NCBI GenBank assembly: GCA_963931925.1
Contig: OZ007575.1
Span: 36,229,850-36,293,849 of the forward strand
Direction of reading: 5' to 3'
Source of the DNA: Onchidella celtica
Taxonomy: Eukaryota; Mollusca; Gastropoda; Systellommatophora; Onchidiidae
Length of the DNA stretch: 64,000 nt
In this document: piece after piece, positions 7,301 to 46,700 of the stretch
Layout of the letters: each line of letters begins with the position of its first letter
Numbering within the stretch: the first letter of the stretch is position 1
The notes under the pieces: model-generated
Seen by the model: the letters and a program-made list of their open reading frames with translations, nothing else
The model's database searches: none
What the model was told of the DNA's origin: nothing
Position numbers and translations under genes: made by a program

Positions 7301-10300
7301 TAGCTGAGTAAAATCAAATCGTAATGGAAATGACTGAATAAAACCATAATGGAAGTAGCTAAATAAAATCGTTATGGAAATCGCCGATAGCTTAATTAAC
7401 AGCTGCTTTTTTTTAAAATTTGGCCACGCCTATCCGAGAGTTTATGGATTTTCTCAACACAGCATTCAACTCCAAACTTGATTTTGATTATGGACAAGAA
7501 TTTTTTTTCCCAAACTTCCACATGCTCGTGTGCACATACATCAATACACACACACATACACAAATGCACCCACAAGCACTTTCCCTCGATCTGACAATTA
7601 CAGTTCTGTAATTTGACAATAATCAAATGAAACATACATTTTACCTCTTTAAAAACACACACACAGAAAATTCGTGGAGTTGCTGCAAGGCCTGCCCAGA
7701 AATCAAACGTTGGGGAAAAAAGTGTGTATTTTGCGAACCCCGGCGTTAGAAGCAGAAATAATGTTATATCCATGGAGCAAACTCCAAAACCATTAAAAAA
7801 TCGAAGAAACTGGGGAAACCTTTTAGATATTAAACCCTTCGTCAGGCCATAATAACATACCTAAATGAAAAAACAAAAAAAACAAAAACAAATAAAAACC
7901 GCTGAAAGGTGAATAAAAGAATATGAGGATGTGTGAATATGAAACTGCTATACTTGCGTAGCTTTCTGTCGCTGCCATATCAATATGTTGGCTGTTGTTA
8001 TTTGTGCGTAATTCCCCCCCCCCCCCATGCGTTTTGCTCTAGGGGCGCGTACGTACACGCACCTATCCCTAACCCCGTCCTTATTCTCAACCCTATATCT
8101 TACCGAATCCCTAATCCTGCTCCTTACCCTTTCAACAACCCCCCCCCCCCAAAAAAAAAGGACGAAAACAAAAAGAAAATCTGAAAGAATAGTTCTAATT
8201 AATTAAGGCTGTTGTTAGGAGTATTTAGAGGGGGGCTTTCTAGTCTCGGAGTCACAAAATGCTTTAACTCACTGAAGACCAGCCCGTCACGGCGGAACGA
8301 GCCCTAGCACAAAACATTTGGGGGAGGTACGCACGTACTTGTAACAATAATTATTATAATTTGTTTACCTTGGGGTGTCCCAGTGCTGTGGTCAGCAGGG
8401 ATTATTGTGGAAGAATACATCCCTCTGACGTGTTTCCAATAGGTATCTTGAAACGTTCCCTTGGGTGGGGCAGTATAGTCGCACATTCCAAGTTCAAAGT
8501 CACAGTCGGCGGCAGAGGGGCAGGGGGACAGGTTGAAACTGATGTCATCAATGAGAAATACGTCACTCTGAGGGGCATCAGCGGACGCTTGGAAAATGAT
8601 CTAGGAATGACGATGAAGTTCCATAATGTAGGCTAATGTAACGTATTAGTCCTGAAATTCGCCAAAAATGGTGTGATCTAAGGCGCTGAACTAAAATTAA
8701 AAACAGGATTAACATAAAATCAATTCATCATGCTTCCACTCACACATATTAACAAACACTTGATCTACTCTCATCCTCAAAACCTCCGAGACCAAAAAGT
8801 GACATCATTCAGTTTCAATGAAAACAGTCCTCAATTCAGTTTTGAGCCTTTTTGTAAATGTGACAATGTTTTCACTTTTCCTGGTGTCAACGTTGATATT
8901 GTTCCACAATTTAGGCCCACCAATAGAAAAAGCCTTTTCACCAAGCGCCATCTGACTGTGGGAGTCTCAAGAAGTTTCGCGTGTAGTGATCTTGCAGTGC
9001 GTGATAGCTGGTATGATTCCACTAGCTCTAAAAGGTATTCTGGGGCTAGTCCGTTTAAACATTTAAAACCAAAGCACAAAATCTTAAAAATAAAGTCCTA
9101 TGTGCATAACAAAGAGCAGCCTTTATTCCTTACATCAGTGGTTCTCAATGTTTTCAGACAATCGCCCCCACACGTTCCAAATTTTCTTTCATCACCCCTT
9201 CCTCCCTAGCAACAACAACATCAACAACAACAACAAAACAAACCTATATTAAAAAAATTATGCTTACATTTTCATAAGAAGACAAACTACACACAATTTA
9301 TGATGTTAAGTTTTTCAAACGGAAGTGCATATCCGTACAACATGTTTGTACGGATATGGACACTGCATATCGGTACAACGCACACAATTAGATGACTTAG
9401 AACACACACCGGAATACTGTATTACTGACCGTGTTAATTTGCATAGTTTTTAAAAATATGAATCGGCTTAGTAGCAAAACAATCCGACTTCTGCTCGGAG
9501 ATTGCATGATCTGCGCTAATAATATACTTGAGTGGACGTCGATCACCAATGGCTACCCCAACCCCTTTTCGCCTGATTAGTCAATCTGACTACCGCCCAT
9601 TGATACAAACTGACCAGACCCTCAAGCCCCCAGGTCTATCTGATATTCCATGTGTTGTCACTTTAAATTCGTGAACACCATACCAAGTTTTGTTTCAGCA
9701 AACTTTCACCAGTCGCGCTTTTTTGTAAACATGTTGTACGGATATGCACTGTCCATATCCATACACGTGTTGTACGGATATACACTTCCTTTTCAAACCT
9801 TTATTTATGACGATAGGTGTGTTGTTTATTCAGTAAAAGACAGAAGGCATCTTTATCAAATGCACTTAAAAAATGGGCCTTTCCCGTTCATGAAATCCAT
9901 CTACATGTGCTGCTCAACCAGCCAGTGACTGACATGTATTTGCCCCCAAAATAGTCCTTCATTCATATTTTCGCCCCCCACCCCCCATCGCCCCCTTCAT
10001 TGTTTTCGCCCTCCTGTCTTCGTTATCGCATCCTCGGAAGGGATATTGTCAACGCTGAGAACCACTGCCCTAAATAGTGTACAGCAGTGGTACTCAACGT
10101 GGGCAATATCGCCGCTCGGGGGCCAAATATGATTTCCAGGTGGGTGAAAAGGAAGAAAAGAGCGACACGGGGGCGAAAATAGATGAAGGGGGGAGGGAGG
10201 GCGAAACATGAATGAAGGACGATTTTGGGGGGGGGGGGGGCATATACGTGGCAGTCGGCAGTCACTGACTTGTTGAACAGCATTGTGTTTGTCTTCTTGC

Positions 10301-13300
10301 AAAATGTATCCATTGCGTTTGCGTGTGGGGTTTTTTTAGGGGGCGGGGGTGGGAAAGGGTAATGAAAGAAAATTTGGGGTCTAAGGAGGCGATTGCCCAA
10401 AAAGGTTGAGAACCACTAGTGTAAAACCTTCCTCTAGGACACACCAAAATAGGTCGATGTATGACCAGATGTGCCGACTGTCTCTTATTTTACAGCAGTG
10501 TCCTGTATTCAGAGTGTTCGGAAAACCGTGAGAAATGTTAATACTTGCTCCTTAAAAAATGAAATTGCTTCCAGGTTTCACAATCGAGGCCAGTTCAGTA
10601 AAGTGCATAATAGTGATAACAGTCTATATGCCTTAAAGATCTCCAGTTTTTTTTCAGAAATTTCGGGTGTCTGTTACTGGGGTAGTCATTTAGTTATCTG
10701 CAGTGTCAGTTCAGCATTTCAAGACACAACAGTGAAAGTACACACAAAGAAGAGCTCAGTGTGGCAGTGTTGGGAAGTTGACTTTTGTATAATAAATATA
10801 CTGGATCAAATTTTAATTATCATGAGTTACGTACATGGTCTAGAAAGAAGGCTGTCATGACGTTTGGGATCCAACTAAAAGTAAAGAATATTATCGCAAC
10901 GAGAAATGGAGAGGGGTTATCATACTAAGCCCGGACGAACACAGTCAGATGCCGGCAGTCAAGAATTGCACACCATAATTTCCTAAATTTTCTCAGTACA
11001 TGCGGGAAGACCCTTCTATCATACTAAGCCCGGTCGAACACAGTCAGATGCCGGCAGTCAAGAATTGCACACCATAATTTCCTAAATTTTCTCAGTACAT
11101 GCGGGAAGACCCTTCTATCATACTAAGCCCGGTCGAACACAGTCAGATGCCGGCAGTCAAGAATTGCACACCATAATTTCCTAAATTTTCTCAGTACATG
11201 CGGGAAGACCCTTCTATCATACTAAGCCCGGCCAGAACAGTCAGCTTCTGCTATTATTTCTTTGGTGTACATTTTAATGGCAGCAACTGGCTATGTCTGA
11301 CCGGGCTGCGTGTTTGCCGATTGCAGTGCAGACCAGCAAATTCAGGAGCGAGGCAGCCACAGACCCCCAAACAGGTCATCGGCTAAGGGATTTCTCGTCC
11401 TATCGAACACTGTCATGGGTGCTGCAACCTCTGGACTGTGCACTGTAAACCCTAATCCTAACCCTAAAATGACTCTGAACGTCACCGAAAATCCATACAA
11501 CGAATTGAAAATGTGGGTGTGTTGCTGACCCGCTCCTGAATTTGCTGGTCTGTACTACAATAGGCAAACACGCGACAGGGCTTAGTGTGATACTTTCCTT
11601 AGTTTGCAATAACTGATGTTCACTACAAGTGGTTTGTCCACAGCATCTGCCCCGCTCCGCTATTTTTACGGAAAATACGTATGGAAAACTAAATCACTCT
11701 TTGCCTCTACAGCGGTGAGAAGCGGAGCGGAACGGTACTGTGGACAAGTTTACAGAGGCAAAGAGTGTTTTACTTTTTAACACTTCATTGTTCGTAAAAA
11801 TTGCGGAGAGGAGCGGAGTGGATGCTGTGGACAAGAGCAGTAAAGCTGTGTTTTCATGAGTACGGCAACGGAGACGGCAACGGAAACGTCAAAAGCCCTT
11901 CACGTAGTGAAATAGAAAGAATGTTCTCAAGTGTCCGGAAATGCCGTTTCCGCACACACAGAAACACTCCTTCTTTTCACTACTTGATGGATTTTTGCCG
12001 TTTCCAATGCCGTTTCCTTTTTCCGTAAACATGAACACGCAGCTTTAGGCTGCAACTATCTAAAGTGTGTTAGTTCTTAATGAGCAGAACTCATTCATTT
12101 ACTTACGTCAAATCTACAACTTCTACAGGAATCTGTGCAGTGGCAAATTGCAAACAAACTGTTTTAGTCTGACAAAATTCTGACTTATTTCATTATCCAG
12201 TGGCGTACAGCAGTTTGGCCATGCCCTGGAGCAGTTCCTTGATTTTACGCCCCAAGACTCAAGTATGTATGACCTTGATCAGCATCACGCACAGAGGCTC
12301 TCCACCCTGGTCTCGCGTATTAAAACACGATCCACATCAAACTAGCTTGTGGGACCGTAATATAATTTTTTTTTAAACACACCCGCACACACACAGAGAA
12401 AAACTAAATATTAATTTGTCTTTCCCTTTTCTTCGCATTTTATTGTACCGTTCCGGTATTATTTCTTACGCGAGGCTTTGCTACACACTAATTATTATTT
12501 TTTTTTGGCCATATTTTGACTTTGTGGGACGACGTTAACAGCAGGCCCCACACTGGGGTAATTTAGTCTTGCCAAGTACACAGAACACCACGGTATGATA
12601 AATACACACCTAACACCACACTGCAAGTTTTACTTTTGCAGGGAACAGCAACGACTATACTTATTGACATGGAATTATTGATACGTATTATACCGGGGAC
12701 ACGGTGGTCTAGAGGCAAGGTGCTCGCCTCTCATGCCGAAGGTACCGGGTTCAAATCCCGGTCGGTGCAGGCACGTTGGAATTCTGCGATTTTTCTCATA
12801 ATTTCCTGTCCCTGATCCTATGGTAGGTAGGATCGAGCATATAGCCTTCTCGGAAAAGGACGAAAAATTCGGAGGGCCCGTTTGCATGTTGGGCACGTTA
12901 AAGATACCTTGGCAGTTGGAAATCGAGGAGAGCAGGCCAAATAGGCCGCTGCCCGGGCAAAATTAAATAAATTTGATCCCTAAATTATTGCGCCCCGTAC
13001 TTCCCAAGGCCGGTCCTGCCTATCTTAAACAAAAAGATTATCTGCATTACATCAGTAACAATTAAATCCCTGATTCTGAATCACTTTGCAATGCTACATA
13101 CCCATTGCGACAGCAATGAAGATGTAACATTTATTGTCATAGACAGGAGAATTCTGGATCTACTGGAAAGCATTAAAAACATATTTCTGTCAAACCATTA
13201 CAAAGTAGATTATTTACACCATTTTCTGTGATCGCTCCATAAGGAGATGGGAGGTCCATAATGTATGTGTGTGCATGCATGAATTAGCGTATAATATGTG

Positions 13301-16300
13301 CATCTGGACCAGATAACATTGGAAGCAAAGTAGTGAGAACATGTGCTGAACAACTAGCAAAAATTTTTACTTTCATCTTCAACAAATCCTTTCAAAACCA
13401 TTACATACCAAACATTTGGAGATTGTCAAAAATCTTACCTGTCCCCAAAAAACCAAAAATATCTGAAATGAACGACCTTCGCCCAGTTGCATTAACTTCC
13501 ATTATCTTTAAATGCTTTGAAAAACTTGTTTTAACTGAACTAACGAAGGAGGTCAAACAAAATCTCGATCCTTTGCAATTTGCATACAAAGAAAACAGGA
13601 ACACAAAAGACGCCTTATTGTTTTTATTGCATAACATCTACAGTCATTTAGACACTGGTAAAACCTGTGTTCGTGTGCTCCTAGTCGATTTTTCGTCTGC
13701 GTTTAACACCATACAACCGCACTTAATGTTTCAAAAGCTTACCAACCTACACGTGAGTTCTTTTTTAAAGAGCTGGATCTTCGAATTTCTAACACAGAGA
13801 AGCCAGTTTGTGGATATAAACAACACATTTTCCAAATTACTCACAACAAACACAGGAGCGCCACAAGGCTGCGTGCTGTCACCTGCCTTGTATACATTGT
13901 ATACAAATGATTTCACTGTGACACACAACGACGTTTACCTTCTTAAATTTGCCGACGACTCTGCTATTTTAGGCCTTTTACCTAACTCTGGCCACGAATA
14001 TTCTAACATTGTACAATCCTTTCATTGTTGGTGTAATAACAACTATCTTCTACTGAATGTTAAGAAAACAAAAGAGCTTGTTTTTGACTTTAGGAAAAAT
14101 AACAACGATCCTGTTTGCCCTCTTACTATCAACAATGAAGAGGTTGAAATTGTCACAGAGGCCAAATATCTTGGCATTACTATTGATTCATTGCTTAACT
14201 GGCATGCGCATGTAACATATGTATACAAGAAAGCCAACCAGCGCATGTATTTCCTCAGAAAGCTCCGCTTTTTAAAAGTTAGCAAAAGCATTCTGAAAAT
14301 ATTTTACACCATGGCTATTCAGAGCGTTTTGATGTATGGAGTTGTCTGTTGGGGAGGAAACATCTTACAAAAAGATAAAAATAAGATCAATAATTTAATT
14401 AAAAAAGCATCCAAAATTTGTATCTGTGATCTGCCATATTTTGATGAGCTGGTGCTTGTATTAAAAAAGCTAATATTATTATATATGACCCCCAACATCC
14501 CCTGAACAAGGAATATATAAGATCTGTAAGAAGTTTAAGGCTGTTGTCAAAGAAAAGTAAAACTGAGCGCTACTTTAAATCGTTTATTCCATCATCAACT
14601 AGGATGTTACAATAATGTCGTCATCTCGATCGTAATCTGTGCACAGTTGAATTATGTCCTGCGTGTCAGGTCAATGTGTTTTAGTTAGGGAAGCATATTG
14701 TGTGCACTGTTAATTTTGTTAATTTAGTTAATTTATCAGTGTGTGTGTATATATGTGTGTGTGCGCGCTATGTATCATACTTTCTGCTTCTGTAACTGTA
14801 TTGTTGTGTATTCAATGATCAAAACAAATTTCCTTGTACAAGGACGAATAAAATTTATCTTATCTTATCTTATCTTATCTTATAAATGGAAATGAGGACT
14901 TGTATGTTGTAAGGATCTTAAGTAATGTACTCAGCAATGACATTACATAGCATTACAGTGGAGGTTAACTGATTTTTCCATCTTATCCAGAGGTAATTTG
15001 CCTCGTGCATATAATGATGATATATACTATTAATAATGTTTAATGATAAGGAGAGATAGTTTCAGTATAATATTGAAATGACAGTCGAAGCGTGGTTAAA
15101 ACATTTTATAACTTTTGTGGTTTTTCTGCTCTAGAATCTAGAGGGTTAATCGCTACCTTAGTTCTTGTTTGCTCCAACTCCACTTTTCTCACAATTCAGA
15201 AATTCGACCTTAACAGTTTGCGCTTTAGTTTATGATAAGAAGTTGAATAAATCGGAACGGTAAAACAGCTTGATAAGTGCCAAAAGGCATGTTGAACATG
15301 ACAGTTATGTGTCAAGGGGTGCATTTGTTGTGCCTCTTCTACACTAAAAGATCTCCAGTTTTTCAGAAAATGGAGACAGAAGAAACATGAACTACAATGC
15401 CGCATAATGTAAACAATTACCCGATATGGATATGGGGTGGAAATGTCCACATGTACTCTCTTCCAATCACTGGCTTCGCTGGATGACCACAATGTACTGG
15501 CATCCGTGACAGCATCAGAAAATCCGCCTGGACCGTATGTGGCTAACAGCACTTTCAGTTGGCTGGACGTGGAACCGTTCTTGGTGAACCAGAAATCCAG
15601 ACATTCATCACCAACTGCTGGATAAAGCGGTGATTGAATCTTTGCCTGTGATGGAGAGCTGGTAATGCGGCTAAGGTCTGCCTCAATAACGTGACCTGGG
15701 GGAGTTGAATGAATACAGTTATATGGCCGAGAATAGCTGAAACTCGCGGTTGTCGACAATAATTATGAATAAGGTTAGTCCCAGTGCCGGATGTATGTAG
15801 GGGGGGGGGGGGTGGTGGCAAAAAGGTCATGGTCGTCTGAATCTGGCCCTCATTACTGGTAGCTCGTCTTTACAAAATTTTCAGGAGAAACAACAAAACA
15901 ACAATAAACGGTGAAACTTTCTTTCCTTTTCTTTTGCGTTATATTGTATCGTTTCCAGATTATTTCTTACGCGATATTTTGCTACATAGGGCTTTTTTTT
16001 TCTTTTTGCCATGTTACGACATAACTTTTTTTGTCAGACTTAATAGTTACGATATTCTAAAAACATCGTTTAACCCTAACTTTTCAGATTTAAGCCCACA
16101 CTTGTAACACAGACTGTGGGCTGTTAAGGGCTACACAAATACCGAATATCCCATTTTTTGAAAAATGTCGAGTTTACCTCGCTGTAGCGTGAAGGTGGCA
16201 AGAGGGCTGTGGTTAAGGTCTATACAGTCATGATTTGGTGACCGCCTTACCTAAGGAGGTTCGGTATGTGCGGTCCGCGGGAGCGAACACGTCAGTGGCC

Positions 16301-22300: not shown

Positions 22301-25300
22301 CGTGTTTTCGGAAACTGGCCAAACATTGCCCTGCCTCAGTTCCCGTTTGTTCGAATTAAAAAAATTTTTTTTTGTTATCACAACTGGGGAATTCGAGGTT
22401 AAACGTTTGCGGCTTTAGTATTGTGGTAGGCGACACAACTCATTTTAAAGATGTGTCAAATTGTGTATTTGTTATAGCTCTTCTGCGTGCTAAAAGATCT
22501 CCAGATTTGCAGAAAGTGGAGATACAACGAAACAAGACATAAGATCGCGATATATAAAGGTAGATTTGCAAGGAGTTCTCCGCTAACACCCCCATCGATG
22601 TAGGTTGTTGAGAAACGAACATTTCGGGATTAATTGAGTAAAAATCTCAAACTAGGTTTTGGTCAGAAAAAAAGTATTTAACTCATGCTTGCTTTGATTT
22701 TTTTCTCAATATTTTTATTATATGGGCGAGTGTGTGATTACTGTCAACTTTTAAGGCCTCGAGGCCTTCAGCCTGTGGCGTATTGCTGCTGTTCACTACA
22801 AGTCCTGCACAGATTCGCACTGTAGGAGTGTGAATTAGAATTGGTGCGAGTTTTTCTTTTTATTACAAGATAAGGAATTTTAAGGATGGTGGCAATCCAG
22901 TGACTCACTTGAACCAAAGACTGAAACAGCTGACGCCCATTGTTGGAGGAAGTAGTGGAGACAAGGCTGAGGCTGTTTCTTTGTTGAAGATTTTTGTGCT
23001 GTCAGTAAACAGATAACCTCCTGCGGAAATTGATCACAAAATAATAATAGCTGATTCCAGAGAACATCATTCCAAAAGTTGAGTCTTTTCGAGAGCCCTA
23101 AACCACCATAGGCGACTGGACCGGACAATCTCAATGTTAACTCATAATGACACGCCAGTGTTGTTTCTTGATCAAAACTACAGATAAATTCGGCTTTTGA
23201 GGAAAATATACGGGGGGTGAAAAGGGAAGGAGGGTTGGGGATTGTGGGGGAATTAACAACAATTTTTAACTGGTCTTCAACACTCCCACCTCCACTTCTT
23301 TTGAAAGCGAACGGCACTAGGCACGAGCTTTCGAGAAACAAAGATCTTTAACTACCACCTACCCCCTTTTCCATTTATCAGTACTCGTATCTCCAAGTTT
23401 GGGTTAGAAAAATGTTCTCCTGTTCAAACAGTTTTGACTGTGTAACTATTAGTCCGATAAATCTAAGACATGGGTTTGAAGTAACTGCAACATAAATGGT
23501 TTCTTTACAGAACAGTAGTCCGTACCATCCAAAACAACATATCAAAAATCGGACAAAATCGGACCACGGGAAATTAGATAAAAAATTGTTTTAATTAATT
23601 AAAATTATATAACATGACGCATTTTGGCAACCGGAGTCCCATACTTTTACTCTGAACCGGGAACGCCGTTACCGAGGTGTCACATAAGTCAAAGATCAAA
23701 GCACATACCATCCCCACCCCCTCTTGACAAAGGTGTAGATGTCAACCGCCGGTGGATAACAAAAAGTATGGAACACTATTTCTGTCGCCTTTCAGAATTT
23801 CTCTAAAGATATAAAAGGAGACTGAAACACAGGAACTTTTGTGCTTTGTTTTTGTGCTGAAATTTGCGATTAGCCTTTTGAGAAAAGTAATTACTTTGCA
23901 CAGGAAATGACATTAATATAATAATAATATGATTTGACTTCCGCAATGTATGTACTTCACTGATATAATTTTGGTACATGTACAAGGATGGTACATTGAA
24001 TGCCGTTTCTCTTCTGGGCCGTAGATGTCTTCATTATCCAGTCTATGGCTAGCAGGAACAGGAAGGATGAGAGGCGACAGCCCTGTCTCACTCCTCTCTG
24101 TACTTGGAAAGGGTCGGTGACCTGTCTGTTGGGTATCACCCACAGGGTCATCCTTTCATAAGAGTTTTTTGATAATGTAGGTGATTTTCCATAGTGTCTC
24201 AGCAACTTCCAGAGGGTCTGCCGGTGCTGTCGTAGTCAATAAATTTGACGTAGAGAGGTGAATTATATTTGTTGTGCCGGTCTCACGTCTGGAAGACCAC
24301 ACACACACACACACGGTGACACTGGCATATTTATGTGCTCACCGTGGTCAGTAGCCTCCTAATAGTTAACCTTGTCTTTTGTCTCCTCTCCACCAGTCCT
24401 AGGGTCGTTGTACGTTACATCGTGAGAAAGCAAGTTTTTTGTCCGTCTTTGTTCTTGTTTAACTATATATGTAGGATGCCTGGGAGTTCAGTCAGTCGGT
24501 GTAGTAAAATTTCCAACAGGACATTAAATGATGGCAACACCAGATCTGACCGAAATTTGCGTACTCTGCAATCAAGAAATCCAGCCGGAAGAAGTTGTTA
24601 CAGAACTGACTGTAAAGGGACGAGATGGAATTAACCGAGCTAGTGAAATGCGGGGTGATAAGATCGATGTCGTGGAAGGCCAAAGAGCCCATGTTGGATG
24701 CCGTAAGCAATATACAAATATTAAAGCTATTTCAGCCTCGCAGCGATCTAAGGAGAGAAGCAGTCAAGAGACAGTTGTTCCATTCCAGCGTCAGTTGCGA
24801 TCGGACACATCTTTCAACTTTCAGCGTGATTGCCTGTTTTGTGGAAATGCAATTCCTAGCACCTCAAAACAAAAGCAGCCAGGTTCATTTCCTGTTAGAA
24901 CGGAAAGAAAGTTCACAGATACCATCAGAGAACTTTGCCAAAAGCGCAACGACGAATGGGCTCGACAGGTCCTTGGTCGACTGGAATATGCAAGAGATCT
25001 GCATGCCAGTGATGCACTATATCACCAAACCTGCAGTGTTAATTTTCGTGCCAATAAGCGAAAGCCAGTGTCTCAATCGCAGACCACTGAGAAGCCAGCT
25101 AAACGTTCTAAAGGAGGCAGACCAATTCAACCAGGAAAGGCCGATGCGTTTCATCAAGTCGTAGACTACTTGCAAGCTCACAAAGAGGGGCAAATCACTG
25201 TCAGTGATCTGGTTGAAAAAATGAGTGAACTTACCAATGACCCATTTTCAACAAGATACATGAAGAAACGACTTCAGGACCATTTTGGTGACAAAATTGT

Positions 25301-28300
25301 CATTGCAGAAATGCACGGAAAGGCTGATGTAGTAACACTTCGAGAGACTGTATCGGAGATACTCCATGATTTCTACAACAGACAAACTAGGAATGATCCT
25401 GAAGCCGAAAAGAGGTTCATAATAAATACTGCTGCACGTTTTATTTTGTCTGATATTAGAGACATTCCATCAAACAAAGACAACGCGTATCCTGTTAATG
25501 AAGAGCTATCTTCTCTGAACAAAAGCTTGGACTTCTTGCCATCCTCCCTAAAAGATTTTTTGAATGAACTGATGACGGGAAAAGACTCCTCTCTGAAAGT
25601 TGCCTCTATGGGTCAAGCAATAATGCAGTCAGCAAGGCCACGAATACTCATTTGTCCCCTGCTGATAGGATTAGGCGTTCAAATGCATCATCTCTTTGGT
25701 TCCAGACGCCTCACTGACACACTGAATTCCCTTGGCTTCTGTAGTTCTTATTCTGAGGTGACGCAGTCTTCCGTGGAGTTGCAATGCCGGAGTTTGACAA
25801 AGAAAAGCATTTACTGCAATATGTTGCCGACAACGTAGACCACAATTCTTGCACCCTTGATGGTTGTAACACATTTCATGGAATGGGCATGATTGGTGTG
25901 ATTACACCAAGTGTGAATTGTTCATTTCCTGTCAAGAGAATTAAGGTCACAGCCGAAGATGTTGCAGCTGTTGGAAAGATTCAAGTGCACTTCTACAGAT
26001 CCGAAAGAGAAGCTGAAACATCTCTGATTCTCAAACACCTACCCACTGTCGAGGCTGAGGATCCATTTATAGGCACTGATATTTTGTGGAAAACATGTTG
26101 GCTTCTGCGCCCAAACAGACCCTCTTGGGTTGGTTTTATGCAGTCAACGAGCGAGGGAGCCCACGAGGGCACATCTAGTGTGATGTTTCTCCCTATAATT
26201 GACTTAAACCCGAATGACTTAACATGCATATTTTCAACATTGACTTTCCTTTCGGATCAGGCAAAGGAATGCCATGTAGATCCCATTGTCACCTTTGATC
26301 AACCTCTGTACTGGAAAGCTTGCATGATAATTGACTCAGAACCTCCGACAAGTCTGTTGAAATCTATGGTATTAAGGCTGGGAGGTTTTCATATGCAGAT
26401 GAGTTTCTTGGGATGCATCGGATATGTCATGGCTGGCTCCGGTCTTGAAGATGCTTTGGAAGTTATATATGCACCAACAACCGTTGGACATATGCTGAGT
26501 GGAAAGGCGGTGGCAAGAGCACTCCGTGGACACTTCAGTGTTGATACTGCCCTCCATGCACTTATTATCTCTCGGAACTTTGGTGTTCCATTGCGTCATG
26601 TTGGTCGCGACGATGAAGACGATGACGAGGACTCTGCAGACGCAGAAAAGGAGAAAAGTGACGACAATCAAGATAACACAATGCAAAGAGCAGCACAAAT
26701 GCTTGATGATCTTCTTGAAAGTAAAACGTCTGCCGAGGCAGTATATGAAACCACCGTTATTGCTTCCATTAATCAGAGTTTGTTAGAAGAAAGGAATATG
26801 GCAGGCAAGGCCAACAGGCTTACTGCAAAACTGTGGTTTTTGTACATGGACATGGTTGAGGTTCTGCGCAAGTTTATCAGAGCAAAGAGAACAGGAAACT
26901 GGAAGCTGCACCTTCAAGCGGTTGCGGATATGTTACCCTTTTTTGCTGCTTGTGGGCATAATGCCTATGTCAAATCCAGTTACGTATACTTACAGTCGAT
27001 GCTGGATCTCCATGAAACGTCTCCAAGGGTGTACAGATTGTTCATGAGTGGAAAACATACAGTTCGACGCATTGATCGCTTCTGGGCCGGACTGTCTACT
27101 GACCTCGTCATCGAACAGATTCTCATGAGAAGTTTAAAGTCCAGCAGAGGGTTGACCCGGGGCCGTGGACTGGATGAGTCACAACGGACGTCATGGTTAT
27201 TGTCAATGCCTGCATGTACTGTCGTGAGTGAAGCAATGGACCGTGTTACTGGATGCCAAGAAGACAATGACCAGCATGTGGATGTCACTTTTTCTCGAAG
27301 AGAGCGTGATAGGAAAGACATTGGCAAACTGATCACTTTTCTGCAGCTCAGAAATCCATTTGCAGATGACATCCTTACTCTGAGAAATATTTCTACTGGG
27401 TTTGTTGCGGACAAGGCTGTTAATATTACCAATGCCAAGCTCATTGGGCAGACTATACTGTCATCAATGAGTGGCAAAGATATCAAGAAATATTCATTCG
27501 GCAAGAAGCAGCGGGCCGTAAATATGTCAGCAAAGGAGGCTATCAAGATTGGCAGTGACAGTTTACAGATTGATCCATGTCTCTTGTTCCAGCGATTGGT
27601 GACTGCATCCAAAGAGGCACCTGAAGATCAGAGAGACATCTTCAAATATGAACTATCTGGACACCCAGCCTTCCTCTTTGAATCCTCAGGTCTTATGAGA
27701 GCTGCAAAGAAATCTGACTTCGCCGATTCAATCAAGACCCTCGCTGAAGACAAAATTCCAGGCGTCACAAAGAGCACACCAGGACCTGAGGAGGATCTGG
27801 CTTATGTCTTGGATGGTGGGTCTCTGATTCACCGCATCCCTTGGCCAAGAGGACAAACATATGATAAGATATGTCAAATATACGTTGACTACGTCGTACG
27901 GAGATACAAAGACGCAACAATCGTCTTTGACGGATATGTTGGCGGGCCTTCAATTAAAGATACTGCCCATATCAGGAGGCGTGCAACAAATGGAAATAAA
28001 GTGCTGTTCCATGGAAGAACGGTGCTGGGTTGCAAGAAGGAAGTCTTGTTATCAAATCTCGACAACGAACAGAGATTCATTAATTTGCTTTCTTCCCACT
28101 TCCATGGAACGCATGTTAAGATCATCCAAGCAACAGGAGATGCAGATGTACTCATAACCACAACTGCTACAGAATCTGCCAAAACAAAACCGACCGTCGT
28201 GGTTGGAGAAGATACCGATCTTCTTATTCTCCTCTGCCATCATGCGGATCCACATTCAAAAAAGATTTTTCTCAAGTCAGATATTCATAGGCAGGAACAG

Positions 28301-31300
28301 ACTGTATGGGACATTCATGGAACAAAGTTAGCACTCGGACCACTTTGTCAGTATCTTCTTTTCACGCATGCCCTGCTTGGATGTGATTCTACGTCACGTC
28401 TTTATGGTCTTGGAAAAAGATCTTCTGTTAAGCATCTTTCAAATCTCACGTTCCAGGACATTGCCAGATCATTTCTCAATGCACCTAATAAAGATTCAGT
28501 GACTGCTTTTGGCGAGAAGGCATTGTTGCTCTTGTATGGCTGCCCTAGTGAAGTTTCTCTAGACACTGCTCGATATCACAGATTCATAGAGAAAACTGCT
28601 GCAGGAACATCTTCGGTTGAGCCACAGAACCTTCCCCCACGTCAGCAGCAGCTAAGTTCCACAGTTGGAGAGTCTGTTATCAAGTCAAAGAATGGACCTC
28701 CCAGTCAAGTGATATGGATCCAACAGAATGGGGATGGAAACATCATCAAAGCCACCTGATGCCAATTCACACTGATCTTCCCCCGGCCCCTCCAAATCTC
28801 TTGACAGTCATTAGATGTAGCTGCAAGACAGACTGCAGGAGCTCAAGATGTAGCTGCAAGAAACATGGTCTAGAGTGTTCGTTTGCTTGCAAGGAATGCC
28901 ACGGGACAAGTTGCACGAATAAGGCACACCAGGATGTGGTTGGAGATGACGGCGCAGATGAAGCTGTTCAAGAAAGTGATGAAACATTTTGATAACTCTT
29001 TAAGCTTCTATGTCACCAGGCATACATAAAGCAGGAACGAGTGGATACAGACTTTGACAAAGTGTTCGTTTGATGTGTGAACTTTAAACAAAGTGATATA
29101 CCGGTGTTCCATACTTTGGATACAGAACTTTACACCAACAGAACGGGCAAAGCTGGTAAGTCCTGAGTGATGTAATTGTAAGAACTGTCGTTTTTAAATG
29201 TTTTAAATACTAGACGTTCGTAGGTGTTGATTTGTTGTTTCTGTAATGATTATTGTCACTTTGTTGTGGTATATCTTTAATGACCCGTCATTGCAACCAC
29301 ATGCATTATTTATATTGTTTAGTCAGTAGAGGTAGGCCTATCATCCTTTTCCAATGATCTGTGATCTGATATTTTGATATTTGTGAATGGACATTTATTT
29401 ATATAACTTGAACTATGAAGTTCTGGTCCATTTGAAAACCAATGAAAACGAATAGAAAAAGTACGCGTGATATTGTTTTACTATTACTTTAGTGAGGCCC
29501 GCCACTGCTAAAAACAAAACAACAGTGTCTATTGTAGAAAATCCAAACCAGAAGAAGCCTTTTCACTCTAGACTTTCGTTTGTTATCTGAGCCGACAGAC
29601 TCCCCGGAACAGGGTTGGCGCGAGGTCGTAAACGCTGAAATTGAATTAAGAAAGTATGGTGCGCCGTTAAGAACTTCGGGGATATTACACAAAATTATAA
29701 TCTTTATTAATTTTTTAAACATATTTCCCATGGTCCGATTTTGTCCGATTTTGGATATGTTGTTCGCCAGAGTAATAACTATATTTCTGTAAAAAAATCA
29801 TTTATGTTGCAGTTTGTTCAAACCCACAAGGTTTTTTCTGCTAAATTTACTGGACTATATCCTCTAGTCTATTATAATATTAATTTTATGAGCGGGTGGG
29901 TCAAGACTGCAAGGGATTGTCAGGACAAAGTCGTTCTTCTGCTTTCATGTAGGTTGTAATAATTTATACAATTTAGATAAGAGTATGTTTAGATCAAACC
30001 ATCTTTAGATAAGGCCATGTTCAGATCAAGCCATCTTTAGATCAAGCCACGTCTACATAACTTGTTCACACTAGAAACAGCAGAGATATTCAAAGCTACA
30101 GAGCTCTGAAAACTGGCACCCAAAGTAACGAGCGACTTGTTATCCCAATAAGGCCGAAGTGTTTCAGTGACGTAGGACTTGCGGTTCTCTTACCTGAGCC
30201 AGTAGTATGGTCTGCTACAAGACTGGAATCACCAATAACAAATTGCTTATCTCCAAAGTCAACAGCCACCCACCCACACATAGTTCCATCATCAAAGGTA
30301 CAGTCTGGCAACATCAACGCTGAAAGCATAGGAAACATAACTTCGTCGGGTATTTGCCATATTGTTGTATGTGACATTTTTGTCGATTTTGAGGTTTGTC
30401 ACGATGAACGTGATTCTCTCACTAATTTCATTATGTACAATTGTCATTCCAATCGGTTAATAACTTTTCGAGATATTTGTATTTGTATTTGTATAACTCT
30501 TTAATCCCATTTGGGAAATTTGCCTTTGTGCCATTGCAGCCCAGTTACAACTGGAGCAAGCACGTCGTCGCCACAGTGCAGCGTCGGTCGGCGGTTTATT
30601 TTTTTTTTTGGGGGGGGGGAGGGAATGGTAGAGATGAATTTTATTTTCGTCCTTATCCGAGAAGACTAGGTACTCGATCCTACCCCCAAATAGGATCAGG
30701 GACACGAAAATATGAGAAAAATCCCAAACTTCCAACATGCCTGCACCGGCCGGGTTTAGAACCCGGGACCCTTGGCATGAGAGGCGAGCACCTTGCCTCT
30801 AGACCACCTTGTCCCCCTTGTTTGTGACATAATATTGCATGCGTTTTGGATGTCTGGGGGACGGAGTCTAACATTTAACAACAAAGCCAAAACAAAGAAA
30901 ATACTGGGTTGTATTCTGTTATATCGGTTTCCATGTATAACAATATGTGCCCTCTAACAGCAGCCATTTTTTTTTTTTTTTTTACCGACCAAACTTCAAT
31001 CCTCAATTTCTCGAGCAGGCAAAAAATGCACATGCAAACAATATGGCAAGAATCCGACAATTTATTAAAACCTAGATCTACCTCCTCACCGAAATGACCC
31101 CCTCAAAAGATTTCAAGACGGGAAAAGGCGTTGCTGTCCTATTTATATGATCTAACTACAAGCAGTGCATTTGGTTACCAGGTCTTCGTTTCGCTTGAAC
31201 TTCAGCATTCTGTTTTATGTTACAGACCGGGGGCGGGAAGTTAAAAATAAATTAAGGTTATTTTAAATTTAAGGTCGAAATTAGAGCCTTGATTATAAGA

Positions 31301-37741: not shown

Positions 37742-40700
37742 AGTGTGTGACGCCGCCACTTTTCACTGCCCAATATTAAAATCTTACTTTTTCTTATTAG
37801 GTAACGGTCAAAGGCGTTGTCACAAATCCCAGACTGGGAGATGTAATAAGTATGACAGGACAACAATCACGAACAACAAGTTTAACACTTAACAGAACAA
37901 CCCATCAGACTCACACATTTATTAAACATAATTATACATATAATAGCGCAATTACATACATTATATTATTGAAATGCACTGCCGTACAACGGCCTTATTC
38001 TCACACACACGCTCCCTCGGATCCACAATCCGGTAGTTACTCCTAACGGCACTTCGGCCTCAGCCTCTCCCCTCAGGGTCTTAATAGTACCTTAATGATT
38101 CACTGGCACCGCAGTCTCTCAATACCACCTTCCTATTGTCATACACCTTAGCACTCCCCTAGCACCTCCGCAGGGCAATAACACATTATTATTTCCATAG
38201 CCATCAACATGGCAACAACATAATATCAGTTCACTAGCCTATCAACATGGCAACAACATAGTATCTCATTCACTCTCATATCTACGTCCCTGTCCGTGGC
38301 CTGACTGCCACGACTTTATGTGCCTCTACTGTCCTGCACTGACAGCCTCACTTCTGGCCTATGTGTGGCCTCCGGCCCTATGCTGGCCTATCCCCTGTGC
38401 TCATCGAGGTGGCTCTGCGGCCCGTCCCCGACACCTACAAGAATAACATTACATTGGTATAATACCCTACCATTTCTATTCGCTCCACCTCTCCTTACAA
38501 TCCATGAAGCGTACACACACTAGTTCACCTTTCACTCACCACACATCTTACGGTAACACACCTCCATCGGAGTACACACTACTCACTCGCGCTACAAATC
38601 CATGAACTCACTTTCATCTATCGCTCGTGGCGCACATTGCTATATCCAATATCAAGGACTTCCACATTCCTCACATATACTTATTCACATCATGGTAATA
38701 GACGAATATAATATAATACATCAATCATAATAATCAATCAACGTTCTACATACCAGTCATAACTGGAAAGACCTCTCACTAGTCTTCTCGACTGCTTCCC
38801 CTTTATGTCCGCCCGATGGGCTTTTATTCACAGGTCCGATCCCTAGGACCTTCTAACTTGCAGTGCTAGTTATACAGCGCTTTCGCCTCCTTCAGACCCC
38901 GCCCCACTACTACTCACAACAGCACGCTTAACTTGCTGTCTACTGTGAGTCCTTACTCTACACCCGCTCTGTAGCAATCCCCTTAATTGCACTCACTCCA
39001 CTCGTGACATCATCCCCCACCCCAAAAAAATTAATGCAATTAATTTCAAATCGCATCAAGATGACTGTCAACGAGTGAGCGTGAGCAATACGTACACTAA
39101 AAAAACTGACCTAGCCGTTCCCCTAGTATATAAAATACCGGAATCAGGGGAAAATATGGGGATCAATATGGCCTGCAATATGCATATATGTGTCACATCA
39201 TGTATAGCTAACTAATCACAATACTTAATACAGAATCAAAAACCATTCAACCTATCAACCATTCTTCATATCATATTTATAATGTCAATATTTTAAAGCC
39301 GACTCATTCACACAGATCCTGTCAATGTTCCTGTCCTCCGATGTATAAGCTCCTGAAATTTTCCCCTAGGCTCGACTAAGGTAGTCGGCGATATGATTGC
39401 TGGTTCCTGGAATTGGTTGAATAACGAAGGTATACGGCTGCAAAGCCAATGCCCATCTAGACAAGCGTGGGCTGGACGAACGATTCTTCGACAAAAATGT
39501 CAGTGGCTTGTGGTCTGTCTGGATACAAAATTCTCGTCCCATGAGATAACGTCCTAATTTCTGGACGGACCAGACAATGGCAAGACACTCACGCTCTATC
39601 ACAGAATACTTTCTTTCTCTCTGCAATAACTTCCTACTGACATAACATACAGGATGGAGACATTCGTTCTTCTCCTGCAGAAGACAAGCGCCGACACCAG
39701 AGTCCGACGCATCCGTTCTGAGGATAAAATTAGATCGAAAATCGGGCAATATCAGAATGGGTGACGATGATAATGCTGTCACCAAATTATCAAATGATGT
39801 CTGACATTCAGACGTCCACTGGACCTTATCGGGTTGTCCCTTCTTAGTAAGGTCAGTAAGAGAAGATGACAAGGAGGAAAAATTTGGAATGAACTTTCTG
39901 TAATAATTTAAAATTCCCACTAAGCTTCTGACTTGTTTCTTTGTTTTTGGGATTTGCAACCCTACTAACTTGTCAATTTTTGTTTCTTCAGGTCTCTGAA
40001 CACCTCTACCCACAATATGTCCTAAGAATATTATCTCTGGACATGCCAAATCCATCTTTGCGGGTTTAGCAGTTAGCCCAAACTGGCGTAATCGTTGAAA
40101 AATTACTGTTAGTGTCTGAATATGATCAGACCATGTCGACGTATGGCATGCTATATCGTCAAAGAATGACACGACATTAGGTATGTCCTTCAACACCAAT
40201 CTCATTAATCGTGCAAACGTCGCTGGTGCGTTTACCAACCCAAATGGCATGACCTTAAATTGGAATAATCCAATGGGCGTTTGGAACGCCGTGTATTGTT
40301 TAGACTCCTCAGTAAGCGGGATTTCCCAATACCCTTTCGTTAAATCTATCTTGGAAAACCACGTGGACCCGGCCAATGAAGCTATTAATTCCTCCTGAAA
40401 CGGAATAGGCTCCCTATCGCCTACCGTAATAGTGTTCAATCTTCGAAAATCAATACAGAACCGCACCGATCCATCGAGTTTTTTCACGAGGACGATGGGT
40501 GATGAATACGGCGATGTTGATGGTTCTATCACATCTAACTTCAGCATTGACTCCACTTCCTTTATGACTCTATCTCTCGAAGAAAAAGGCAACGGATACG
40601 GTCTAAGAAATACTGGCTTATCCGAAGTCAACTTTATTTGGTGCTGGATCACCGTAGTGCGACCCGGCAAATCCGTAACAACATCCGGAAATGACGCTAA

Positions 40701-43700
40701 TAGGGTCTCAAGTTCCCTACTCCTTGAACTCGTAAGGTCAGGGTTAATTTTTACGTCCCTGTAACCTTGTGTCGGAGTTAACTCCGGCAATTGAATTTGT
40801 AACTCTTCCTGCGCCTCGGTGTCGCTTACGTCACAGTCCAACTGGTCTACGACCCCCGTACAAGCGGTAGAGAAGACAGTCTCCTCTGGTCTTGTCTGTG
40901 CACACAGATACTGTGGTCCTTCTACTGAATTTCCTTATTATTGTCTTTTCTACTCTTTTTTATTATTAATAGTGCAGTACATTTTATGAATATAGAATTA
41001 GTTGTGCTGTAAAGGTAAATTTCTGAATTGTATTGGATACAAGTAGGTGTGGTTATATCTGGTGTGATCTCAGGTCTCTGGTCGTGTCGTTAGTATCATA
41101 CCGACAGGTTAGCCGTTTTTTTTAAATATATACCATAACCATAAATCTGTGAAATGGCGGAACTCCAACAATTAATGAAGTTGGGTAAGGAACTTGGCCT
41201 TGAGGGAGAGGAGCTACGCGGCTGGATCAAAGAACAGCAGGCGGATTTGCGCGATGAGCGTGCTAAGGATAGAGAGCGAGAAAAAGAGGCTAAGGCTCAG
41301 GAGCAGGAGAGAGAGGCTAAGGATAAGCAAGAGGAAAGAGAGGCTAAGGCTCAGCAACAAGAAAGAGAGGCTAAGGATAAGGAACAGGAAAGGGAGTTTA
41401 AGCAACAGGAAAGAGAGGTCCCGGGTTCAAATCCCGGACGAGCCCCCAGTGTCACAAATCCCAGACTGGGAGATGTAATAAGTATGACAGGACAACAATC
41501 ACGAACAACAAGTTTAACACTTAACAGAACAACCCATCAGACTCACACATTTATTAAACATAATTATACATATAATAGCGCAATTACATACATTATATTA
41601 TTGAAATGCACTGCCGTACAACGGCCTTATTCTCACACACACGCTCCCTCGGATCCACAATCCGGTAGTTACTCCTAACGGCACTTCGGCCTCAGCCTCT
41701 CCCCTCAGGGTCTTAATAGTACCTTAATGATTCACTGGCACCGCAGTCTCTCAATACCACCTTCCTATTGTCATACACCTTAGCACTCCCCTAGCACCTC
41801 CGCAGGGCAATAACACATTATTATTTCCATAGCCATCAACATGGCAACAACATAATATCAGTTCACTAGCCTATCAACATGGCAACAACATAGTATCTCA
41901 TTCACTCTCATATCTACGTCCCTGTCCGTGGCCTGACTGCCACGACTTTATGTGCCTCTACTGTCCTGCACTGACAGCCTCACTTCTGGCCTATGTGTGG
42001 CCTCCGGCCCTATGCTGGCCTATCCCCTGTGCTCATCGAGGTGGCTCTGCGGCCCGTCCCCGACACCTACAAGAATAACATTACATTGGTATAATACCCT
42101 ACCATTTCTATTCGCTCCACCTCTCCTTACAATCCATGAAGCGTACACACACTAGTTCACCTTTCACTCACCACACATCTTACGGTAACACACCTCCATC
42201 GGAGTACACACTACTCACTCGCGCTACAAATCCATGAACTCACTTTCATCTATCGCTCGTGGCGCACATTGCTATATCCAATATCAAGGACTTCCACATT
42301 CCTCACATATACTTATTCACATCATGGTAATAGACGAATATAATATAATACATCAATCATAATAATCAATCAACGTTCTACATACCAGTCATAACTGGAA
42401 AGACCTCTCACTAGTCTTCTCGACTGCTTCCCCTTTATGTCCGCCCGATGGGCTTTTATTCACAGGTCCGATCCCTAGGACCTTCTAACTTGCAGTGCTA
42501 GTTATACAGCGCTTTCGCCTCCTTCAGACCCCGCCCCACTACTACTCACAACAGCACGCTTAACTTGCTGTCTACTGTGAGTCCTTACTCTACACCCGCT
42601 CTGTAGCAATCCCCTTAATTGCACTCACTCCACTCGTGACAGGCGTGAAGTGGCCGTTGCCGTTCCAACGCACCCAAAGGGGTGAGGGCAATTTTACACC
42701 CACTTTAGCACTACCGTTAGTGGTATGAGATAAAGGCCTAGTTCAGAAGGAGGTGTTTTTATGGGCATTGAGAAAATGACAAAAAAACTCTCTTACAGTC
42801 ACCTGTCTGGTAATTCTGATTGCAGATTAGGATGGGTAGATCTAACTTACATTATCTATTATGAACACAGAATGATTTTTTACTTGCAAACCGATTTGTT
42901 CAAGAAAAGTGACATACCCAATTACAATTTTAACAGCACGACTTACCCCGCGTTCACACTAGAGATCCAGTTACGGTAAGTAACTTTCGTACTGCTCAAT
43001 AACGGACGAGGTTAATCTTTACATCTCGTCCAATTGTGTTCTCACCTAACTTTCGAAATATTATGAAAACCACAGAAAAACTCTGGGGTCGCAGCAAGGC
43101 TATATAGAAAGTCAAATTCTGGCAAAGAGAAAAAAATGTATGTAGCAAAGCTTGCAATACAAGCAAGAACTCGCAGCTAAGTAGACATAATATTCTATTC
43201 ATATTCTATATATTTCATATTCAAATCTTTTATTGTTCGGTTGTTTTATCTGTTCAATTTTCCATTTTTTTCTGTTGTTGGGTTTTTTTCTTGTTTTTTT
43301 TCCTTGAAAATGCTGTTGCCCAAATATAGGCCATTTTCTGTCGTCTTCTCTTTTAGCTTGAGTTTCGTTGTATCGTTTGGGTATTATTTATAACGGGAGG
43401 CTTTGCTACATGCAAAATTTTCTTTTCACCTAACTGTCGTAAACTAGTAAGTTTGGAGAGAACACGAGGAGAGATACAAAGACTGAAGTCATCCGTTCGT
43501 GAGTGGTATGAAAGTTGGTGAAAACAGATCTCTGGTGTGAATGCGGGGTTACGTATTTACCTCATGTAACTGACAAAATATTACTCATGATTAACCAGCC
43601 CTTTAAAAGTCAAGCAAGTTACAGCTTGATGTGCTGAACAGTCGGTATGACTGTTAATAACACACTTACATGGAATTTGCCACTCTGATTGATAGGCACA

Positions 43701-46700
43701 CGGGCTTTCCTCCAGCTGGGTCCCGAGTCACTCCGTAGTGACCATTGCATCATATCAGGCCCTAGGGCACCTTCAGATCCATCTGGTGCTATATAAACAT
43801 TCAACTGCCCAAGCTGGCTACCCTGAAAACACACACATTTATAATGTCAGATTGACCAAACTCTCAACTGACCCTGGATCGAGCAACCTTGAGGAAAAGC
43901 AAAACAACAAATTGTAGATGGCATAAACGGCTTATGAGCTGCAAGGGCCAAAAATTATGTTCTGTGTACAACCTGCAGTGCGGTTTTAGGTGTATGTTGC
44001 AAACGTGTTGTGTGTATGTGACAAGACTGGAGTACCCTAGCGCGAAGCCCAATCGGGAGCATTATAATTTGGTCCAGTTAGCTTCAAGCTGATTCCGATG
44101 GCATCAGTAGGATTGTAATTTGTATGGTAACTATTCTAAGCCAATTAGAAAAGGACATTGGGAAGACTTATTCGATTCAGCTATAAAGATTGTTAAAATT
44201 GCAGTGTTTTTGGTCGCTTTACTCTATCCAAGGGTGGTTTCTGAAAAGTTTGTATTTTGCTGTTCAGACTCATGACCTGTTCTGTCGGCTATGCAACAGC
44301 TTATTCGGCAGAGCGTTCTCCAGGCATGCCGAAGTCTCCTGCTCGTGCAACGGTTTGACCTACATTTCCAGTCTGTCAATTCGATTTCTTTCCTTTTTGT
44401 TGCTCCTATTGATTTTTGGTATCTGAAGATTCCACCAGGGTGTATCTTTAGCTTTTTCGCTGGACACAAATAAATGAAATTTCAGGCATAAGTACATTTT
44501 ATTTTCCCCCGAGGATATATCCACTTGGCAGACCATTGTCATTAACAAAGACGCGGGGCAGGGTAAAGAAAAACAAATACCAAGACAAATTCCTGGAGAA
44601 ATTCCACTGAATGTAATCACAGCCTGAGTTTCAGCTAAGTAATTTTCTTTCAGGCAACTCACAGATAGATAGAATAAGTCATGCTGAAAGCCGCTGGGGG
44701 CTCCCAAGAGGTCTTGAGGGCTGCAGTGATGTGTGTTTAAAAGAGCCGGGTATGAAGAGAATGCACTATTCACCTTGAAGCCCATGTGGGCTTTATGTGT
44801 GAGGAGTTTTTTGTGACAACATAGCCCCCTCCCCCCCCCCCCCCCCCTTTTCCCCCAATCAGATCTGTATCTTTCACCAAACAAAGGGGGTAAAAGCTAG
44901 AAACGCTAATAAAACAAGGGCAAGGGGGAAAGTTTTACTTACAGACATGTGGTAGTAGAACTCTAGACACTGCGGAGAGCCACTGTTGGCCGGGTAAGCT
45001 GGACTAATGATCCTGGCTGCGTCACCGGCAGCGCCGTTATTGTTGACCTGAAAGTGGATCAGTAGATACAAGCGGTGAACGAGTGGCCGTATCAGGCGGG
45101 GCTTCATTTAGGCTATGTGACTTTGCTGGGTTGCAGTCATGCCAGTAAAAGAACCAAAATACCAAATGACGTATGGGATTGCCACTTGTAAGACAAAGAT
45201 GCTTATTTGAGCTCAGTAATTCTCCCCAAGCAGTGGAAAGGTTAAATGACTCACGGAACTGCTTTAATCTTCCGGCTGCCAGGGAGAAAAGTATTGTGCT
45301 CTGCCAGCGGTTTTTGTTTTACCCGCATATGTTAAATCTTATAAATCTGGTATTTGGAACATACCAAATGGCCTAGACCCTCCAATAAAGTGCACATTAG
45401 CCCTAAGAGCCCAAACACACTGGCTTCTGTTTCGTTTCGCTTTCGGCAGTTTTGCCGAATATCAGTCTCGTCATGCCGAATAGCCCAGAGAGATGTCAAA
45501 AAACCTTCACTGCGCCTTTCTGAGTGCACGGGGCTTCTGCTTTTCTCTTGTTTCACTTGTCGTCGAGACTGTCGTCTTTCTGTGAAACTATCGAAAGCGA
45601 AACGAAACCTAAACGAAACCGACGCGACTATGTCTGGGCTCTAATATCTCTCACTTATATTTCTGACACATCAGAATCGCTTAGTTCCACGTGTGTCTTT
45701 TTCCAACAGAGCCCCTGAAGTGATTCATATAAAATGATATCTTATGACCAGTATTGTGCGCAAATATTCAAAGATAATATGCACAACGAGAAAAATAAAT
45801 AAATAGCTAAAATAGCTTAGAGCTGAAAGAGTTAATTGGAAGCTGATATCATGGGCTCTGACAACATAATGTTTAAAATGTACCCAATTTTAACCTGCCT
45901 AAGCTAATACTCAGATTAGATCAACTTGACACCGTTTTAAGAAACTCATTCTTGGAAACAAACCTGAGGGTATATGAAAAAGCCCTTTGAAGGGTCAGAA
46001 TGAGTATGTTCTTGGAAGGGCTTCAGCGTATCTGAAGAGGCCATGTTGGATGACGATATAACCCAGGAATTGGGAGCTGTGCTATCTGACTGAAACCCAC
46101 ACAAAGACACGTCATCAAACTTGCAGGTGACCGAGGCGGATGCAGGTGGGGCGGATGTAGGTAGGGTGGTGCTAGTCTGTTGTCCTACTGAAGTAACTTC
46201 GGCAGCTGGTGGTAGTGCTGGTGAAGATAATTTCATTCCATGAAGAAAAGATTGCAAAAATCTTCTGTTGATTCTGATTTTGAGTGGATGTAATAACGAC
46301 TATGGTTTGATGATTCTCATTTTGAGTGTTATAATAATGGTTAGATTCTGATGGCTCTCATTTTGAATGAGTATAATAATGGTTATGTTCTGATGATTCT
46401 CATTTTGAGTAAGTATAATATTTTCTATGCTCTGATGATTCTCATTTTATGTGAATATAATATTTTTTATGCTCTGATGATTTTCATTTTGATTGGATAT
46501 AACAATGTCTGTGTTCTGACAATTCTCATTTTGAGTGAATGTAATAATGGCTATGTTCTGATGATTTTCAGAATGAGGAAATAATTATGGCTGTTTTCTG
46601 AGGTTTGTCAGAATGGGAATCTACACCTAAGGTTTGAATGATTCTCTAAATATACCATACAGCTATATTCTGGATGATTTTCAGACTGTGAAGATAATTA

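Follow-up and report, generated by a model that had tools for sequence, protein, structure and literature searches.

What is a protein with nuclease motifs and a cysteine-rich tail doing between two inverted termini? The question is raised by a 64,000-nucleotide stretch of the genome of the gastropod Onchidella celtica (assembly GCA_963931925.1, contig OZ007575.1, positions 36,229,850 to 36,293,849; hereafter the window), in which a first-pass annotation had placed, at 23440-29860, a transposon encoding a FEN/PIN-type nuclease. Our answer, which we hold with good confidence, is that the element is a decayed member of an AcademX-type DNA transposon family that has been mobile recently. Its outer features are these:

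23450-29857, plus strand: complete transposon copy, 6408 bp, with borders common to 14 further two-ended copies
23447-23449, strandless: left target-site duplication, TAT
29858-29860, strandless: right target-site duplication, TAT
23450-23587, plus strand: left terminal inverted repeat, tip TAGTCC, two tandem AAAATCGGAC units
29709-29857, minus strand: right terminal inverted repeat, minus-strand tip TAGTCC, the same tandem AAAATCGGAC units

The element opens with TAGTCC at 23450 and closes with GGACTA ending at 29857, with TAT outside each tip, so that the annotated coordinates were correct to within 10 bp. The inverted termini are imperfect and approximately 140 bp long; without gaps they match over 115 nt at 81%, in keeping with the annotated minimum of 100 bp, and a gapped alignment reaches the tips. 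Aligned with gaps, the 600-base end stretches score 190, whereas none of 100 single-base shuffles scores above 80, and a chance repeat is rejected on this ground.

The locus holds a terminal-inverted-repeat element approximately 6.4 kb long. Its borders are fixed, its target duplications measure 3 bp, and copies of it lie at many places in the genome. Copies were sought in the window's own assembly (1.14 Gb, 43 contigs), where the central open reading frame matches at least 52 stretches, a lower bound given that 46 of 506 candidate stretches were scored. Eight of these matches, the window itself among them, span nearly the full length with identities of 96-100%, and full-length copies are approximately 96-99% identical to the window copy. 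The annotation had looked to other copies with the same termini and to a constant duplication at shared borders, and both are found. Among 20 stretches fetched for border analysis the end positions of the window copy recur to the base on the left in 16, on the right in 17 and on both sides in 14; for L016 and L026, where the match begins at base 3, the border was placed two bases further outward. Together with the window these make 15 two-ended copies, 12 of which carry an exact 3-bp target-site duplication (TAT, TTA, GAA, AAA, GTA, CTT, ATA, AAG, TAC twice, ATT and CAC), whereas borders shifted by 1-6 bases in either direction give matching triplets in at most one of the 15. A search of the assembly with the left end returned 41 matches, of which 31 start at base 1 and three at base 3, the remainder being one internal match, five to the right terminus and one fragment. 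The flanks of one copy, L023, match two uninterrupted repeat copies in the window (60669-60812 and 11346-11449) in which ATT is present once; by this sequence comparison L023 is a clean insertion into a repeat. It is the one case of an uninterrupted site among the 14 two-ended fetched copies, in a search that covered the window and the available flanks.

Several copies retain much of their coding capacity. L009, L010 and L012 have stop-to-stop frames of 1454, 1494 and 1466 codons, respectively; that of L010, for which the fetched stretch yielded no right end, holds the first zinc motif and CXC within one frame, and L009 and L012 have both ends and frames that start later. Among these three and L014, the four long-frame copies, the ratio of non-synonymous to synonymous substitution rates (dN/dS) is 0.30-0.62 in five of six pairs, a pattern that, for these few copies, fits purifying selection on mobile lineages with neutral decay after insertion.

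The coding region of the window copy is spread over three frames:

24528-25838, plus strand: first frame of the transposase gene, 436 residues, with zinc modules, winged helix and helices
24558-24701, plus strand: zinc module 1 (CxxC...HxxC), pattern in 65 of 77 homologues
24831-25034, plus strand: zinc module 2 (CxxC...HxxC), pattern in 53 of 77 homologues
25119-25346, plus strand: predicted winged-helix domain
25757-28759, plus strand: second frame, 1000 residues, with DDE core, linker and FEN nuclease
25811-27139, plus strand: predicted RNase H-like DDE core with helical insertion, from structure model and conservation
27707-28639, plus strand: predicted FEN1/EXO1/XPG-fold nuclease with acids D686, D725, D795, D797, D819, D821 and D877, from structure model and conservation
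28621-28992, plus strand: third frame, the C-terminal tail with the nine-cysteine CXC domain (28816-28920)

Because the three frames in succession are collinear with all six of the single-frame homologues compared, they are, as judged from sequence, one gene that is frame-shifted in the window copy. The frame is lost within 25757-25838, where 5-22 residues of the six homologues are unaligned, and near 28636-28639. The annotation's single large protein is upheld with this correction, and each motif quoted for it is present (two Cys/His modules, VFDG, GDADVL, GEDTDLLILL, LLGCDSTS and the nine-cysteine CXC). The predicted product is one protein of approximately 1470 residues that would combine DNA-binding modules, an RNase H/DDE core with a helical insertion, a FEN1/XPG-fold nuclease and a CXC tail. 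Motif conservation was counted in 77 homologues of at least 1400 residues, and the nine-cysteine pattern occurs in 73 of them, some bearing UniRef names of the Tesmin/TSO1-type CXC. The N-terminal structure model has no clear fold beyond the winged helix, which is not proof of a new fold.

The two candidate catalytic centres lie in the second frame. Membership of the FEN1/XPG group is indicated by the predicted fold and by seven conserved acids at the positions of the FEN1 metal-binding sites; the structure model thus contains the nuclease core that the annotation had proposed. This part differs from FEN1, EXO1 and XPG in sitting fused inside a transposase, at approximately 11-17% identity. 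The annotation had also raised an unrecognised DDE centre early in the central reading frame, and one is predicted within its first ~500 residues: the order of strands and helices in the model, which is a prediction only, is that of RNase H, with a conserved D, D and E. The proposed catalytic residues, D25 (or D28), D181 (26297-26299) and E453 (27113-27115), are conserved in the homologue set as strongly as the FEN acids. The core is predicted to be P-element-like and to correspond to the Pfam family DUF6589.

A second family in the same assembly bears on both centres. The DUF6589 profile finds 13 loci (L029-L041), all above the cut-off, which belong to another, FEN-like family; a score of 30.8 bits, against a threshold of 27, was obtained for this related family. 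From D181 through the last FEN acids L031 is approximately 24% identical to the window protein, and it retains D181 and E453 together with the FEN acids, except that D795 is E; L036 retains D25, D28, D181 and E453. Since both centres are conserved across this distance, the sequences argue that both are in use. A search with the second family returned 98 relatives, including sequences from Nucella, Elysia, Oculina and Porites. Regular-expression counts in the 13 longest of these were uneven (DN.D 1, second D 10, IEQ 13, VDG 12, SIK...R 12, EAD 12, DTD 6, GCDT 5 and CXC 1) and were set aside as evidence, because at least P0123 and P0124 run out before the nuclease part is complete and the first of the patterns had been drawn too narrowly. 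With tblastn no relative was found in viral contigs or in the genome-contig collection, and sequence searches of the PDB gave nothing useful, one being without a match and the other yielding a single match at E 1.4.

To which group does the element belong? The nuclease of AcademX is of the XPG type, and the Academ superfamily and AcademX lineage are reportedly due to Kapitonov and Jurka 2010 (cited in PMC4455052). EnSpm/CACTA elements have CACTA-type termini, and membership of that group is rejected by the TAGTCC tips. As far as the available text of the source goes, AcademX is a lineage with an encoded nuclease and duplications of 3 or 4 bp, against 9 or 10 bp in AcademH, and these lengths have been suggested to relate to the nuclease of the former and the helicase of the latter (PMC10045372). 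In the window element we find the 3-bp duplication (12 of 15 copies), the nuclease, a predicted DDD/E core and terminal inverted repeats. Because core, nuclease and duplication fit, the element is best placed as a new addition to an already known group, AcademX of the Academ superfamily, and the Academ relation that the annotation had thought possible is likely. It is less novel than hoped, as AcademX has already been described as nuclease-encoding with duplications of this length. Membership of the P superfamily is rejected, since its duplications are given as 7-8 bp, not the 3 bp seen here, in the part of the source available, where those of Academ are given as 3 bp (PMC5199201); the window element also differs from the P element transposase (6pe2) in its FEN and CXC parts. 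In the accessible portion of another report, Academ counts as a DDD/E transposase superfamily, and added nucleases are mentioned for Kolobok lineages as well (PMC9587614).

A number of points weigh against this placement and against the domain reading beneath it. The AcademX assignment is one of features rather than of sequence, a likeness by description in which no difference was shown. Three of the 15 two-ended copies (L013, L016 and L024) have no 3-bp duplication, and the pair L012/L014 has a dN/dS of 2.0, on eight changes only. The RNase H match is one among the 50 fold matches listed, at 9% identity and with a Z score at which chance matches of helical models can occur; no other transposase structure stands among those 50, which are filled by FEN-type entries, and this is not an exclusion. 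The window protein matches DUF6589 at E 0.033 and 13.3 bits (cut-off 27), and four of the six homologues do so, all under the cut-off, the best being P0013 with 26.4 bits. CXC is without a Pfam match in the window protein and the six homologues, and the substrate given here to the FEN domain is a proposal.

Part of this leaves room for a separate new superfamily in which a DDE transposase and a FEN nuclease were fused independently of Academ, the more so as DUF6589 is listed in Pfam as of unknown function and no mention of it was found in the literature searched. We nevertheless consider this unlikely: duplication length and encoded nuclease fit AcademX, and 6.4 kb is of the same order as the mean curated length of 5565 bp given for Academ, there counted among the DDE/D elements, in the available part of a bivalve survey (PMC10294476). 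It is more improbable still that the FEN domain does the main nuclease work of transposition, the RNase H-like part being structural only. The seven conserved acids speak for it, as does the stronger fold match of the FEN part, but D25/D28, D181 and E453 are equally conserved and are kept in the family of ~24% identity. The annotation's option of a FEN centre acting alone is not supported, and, given that a DDE-type centre is both predicted and conserved, an auxiliary role is the more probable one for the FEN part. A domesticated host gene lying by chance between inverted repeats, for which the conserved protein of the window copy might speak, can be dismissed at this locus on its fixed termini and 3-bp duplications, the protein being multicopy, with at least 52 matched stretches and several frame-shifted copies, rather than confined to single-copy host genes.

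The leader of the transposon and the rest of the window contain further repeats:

23957-24235, minus strand: antisense reverse-transcriptase-like fragment in the transposon leader (RVT_1, E 3.3e-4, under the Pfam cut-off)

Since this fragment is matched in 17 of the 20 fetched loci, it was probably captured by the ancestor of the transposon family. Elsewhere, two identical 1192-bp direct repeats (37818-42641) flank a minus-strand reverse-transcriptase reading frame at 39366-40934, Gypsy-like by eye, and the whole is probably a young long terminal repeat retrotransposon. An open frame of 405 codons at 13288-14505 resembles the reverse transcriptase of a non-LTR retrotransposon, and overlapping self-match arrays at 6886-7385, 10918-11239 and 46260-46847 are probably tandem repeats.

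How might an AcademX-type transposase with two centres work? The zinc, winged-helix or CXC modules would bind the element termini, and the DDE centre, on the known behaviour of DDE transposases and the 3-bp duplication, would nick the 3' ends and join them to target DNA across a 3-bp stagger. Joining would leave the former flank as a 5' flap next to a 3-nt gap. The fold relatives of the FEN domain recognise and cut 5' flaps; this centre may trim the leftover flap or, equally, cut the 5' (non-transferred) strand before integration, and filling of the gap by the host would yield the 3-bp duplication. In TnsA-TnsB of Tn7, a DDE enzyme serves the 3' ends and a second nuclease the 5' ends. Should the FEN part cut the 5' strand, the likeness to TnsA-TnsB would be one of working, with no homology claimed, and the systems differ in nuclease fold and in the single polypeptide of the window element. 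Tentatively, and at somewhat less than an even chance, the FEN centre, whether it cuts the 5' strand or takes off the flap left at the 3-nt gap, would serve a eukaryotic transposase as its dedicated nuclease for the second strand, so that one protein would do what TnsA and TnsB share between them.

In the literature searched, Academ seems to have received little study, and no two of the terms CXC domain, DDE transposase and XPG were found together. DUF6589 also occurs in fungi and, if this reading of the FEN domain is true, it would be the transposase domain of a group widespread in animals and fungi. The transposon family also suggests a function as DDE transposase plus FEN nuclease for DUF6589 and for many proteins now hypothetical or named after CXC, and with its near-intact copies, exact ends and defined 3-bp duplication, what a flap nuclease encoded by a transposon does would be directly testable.
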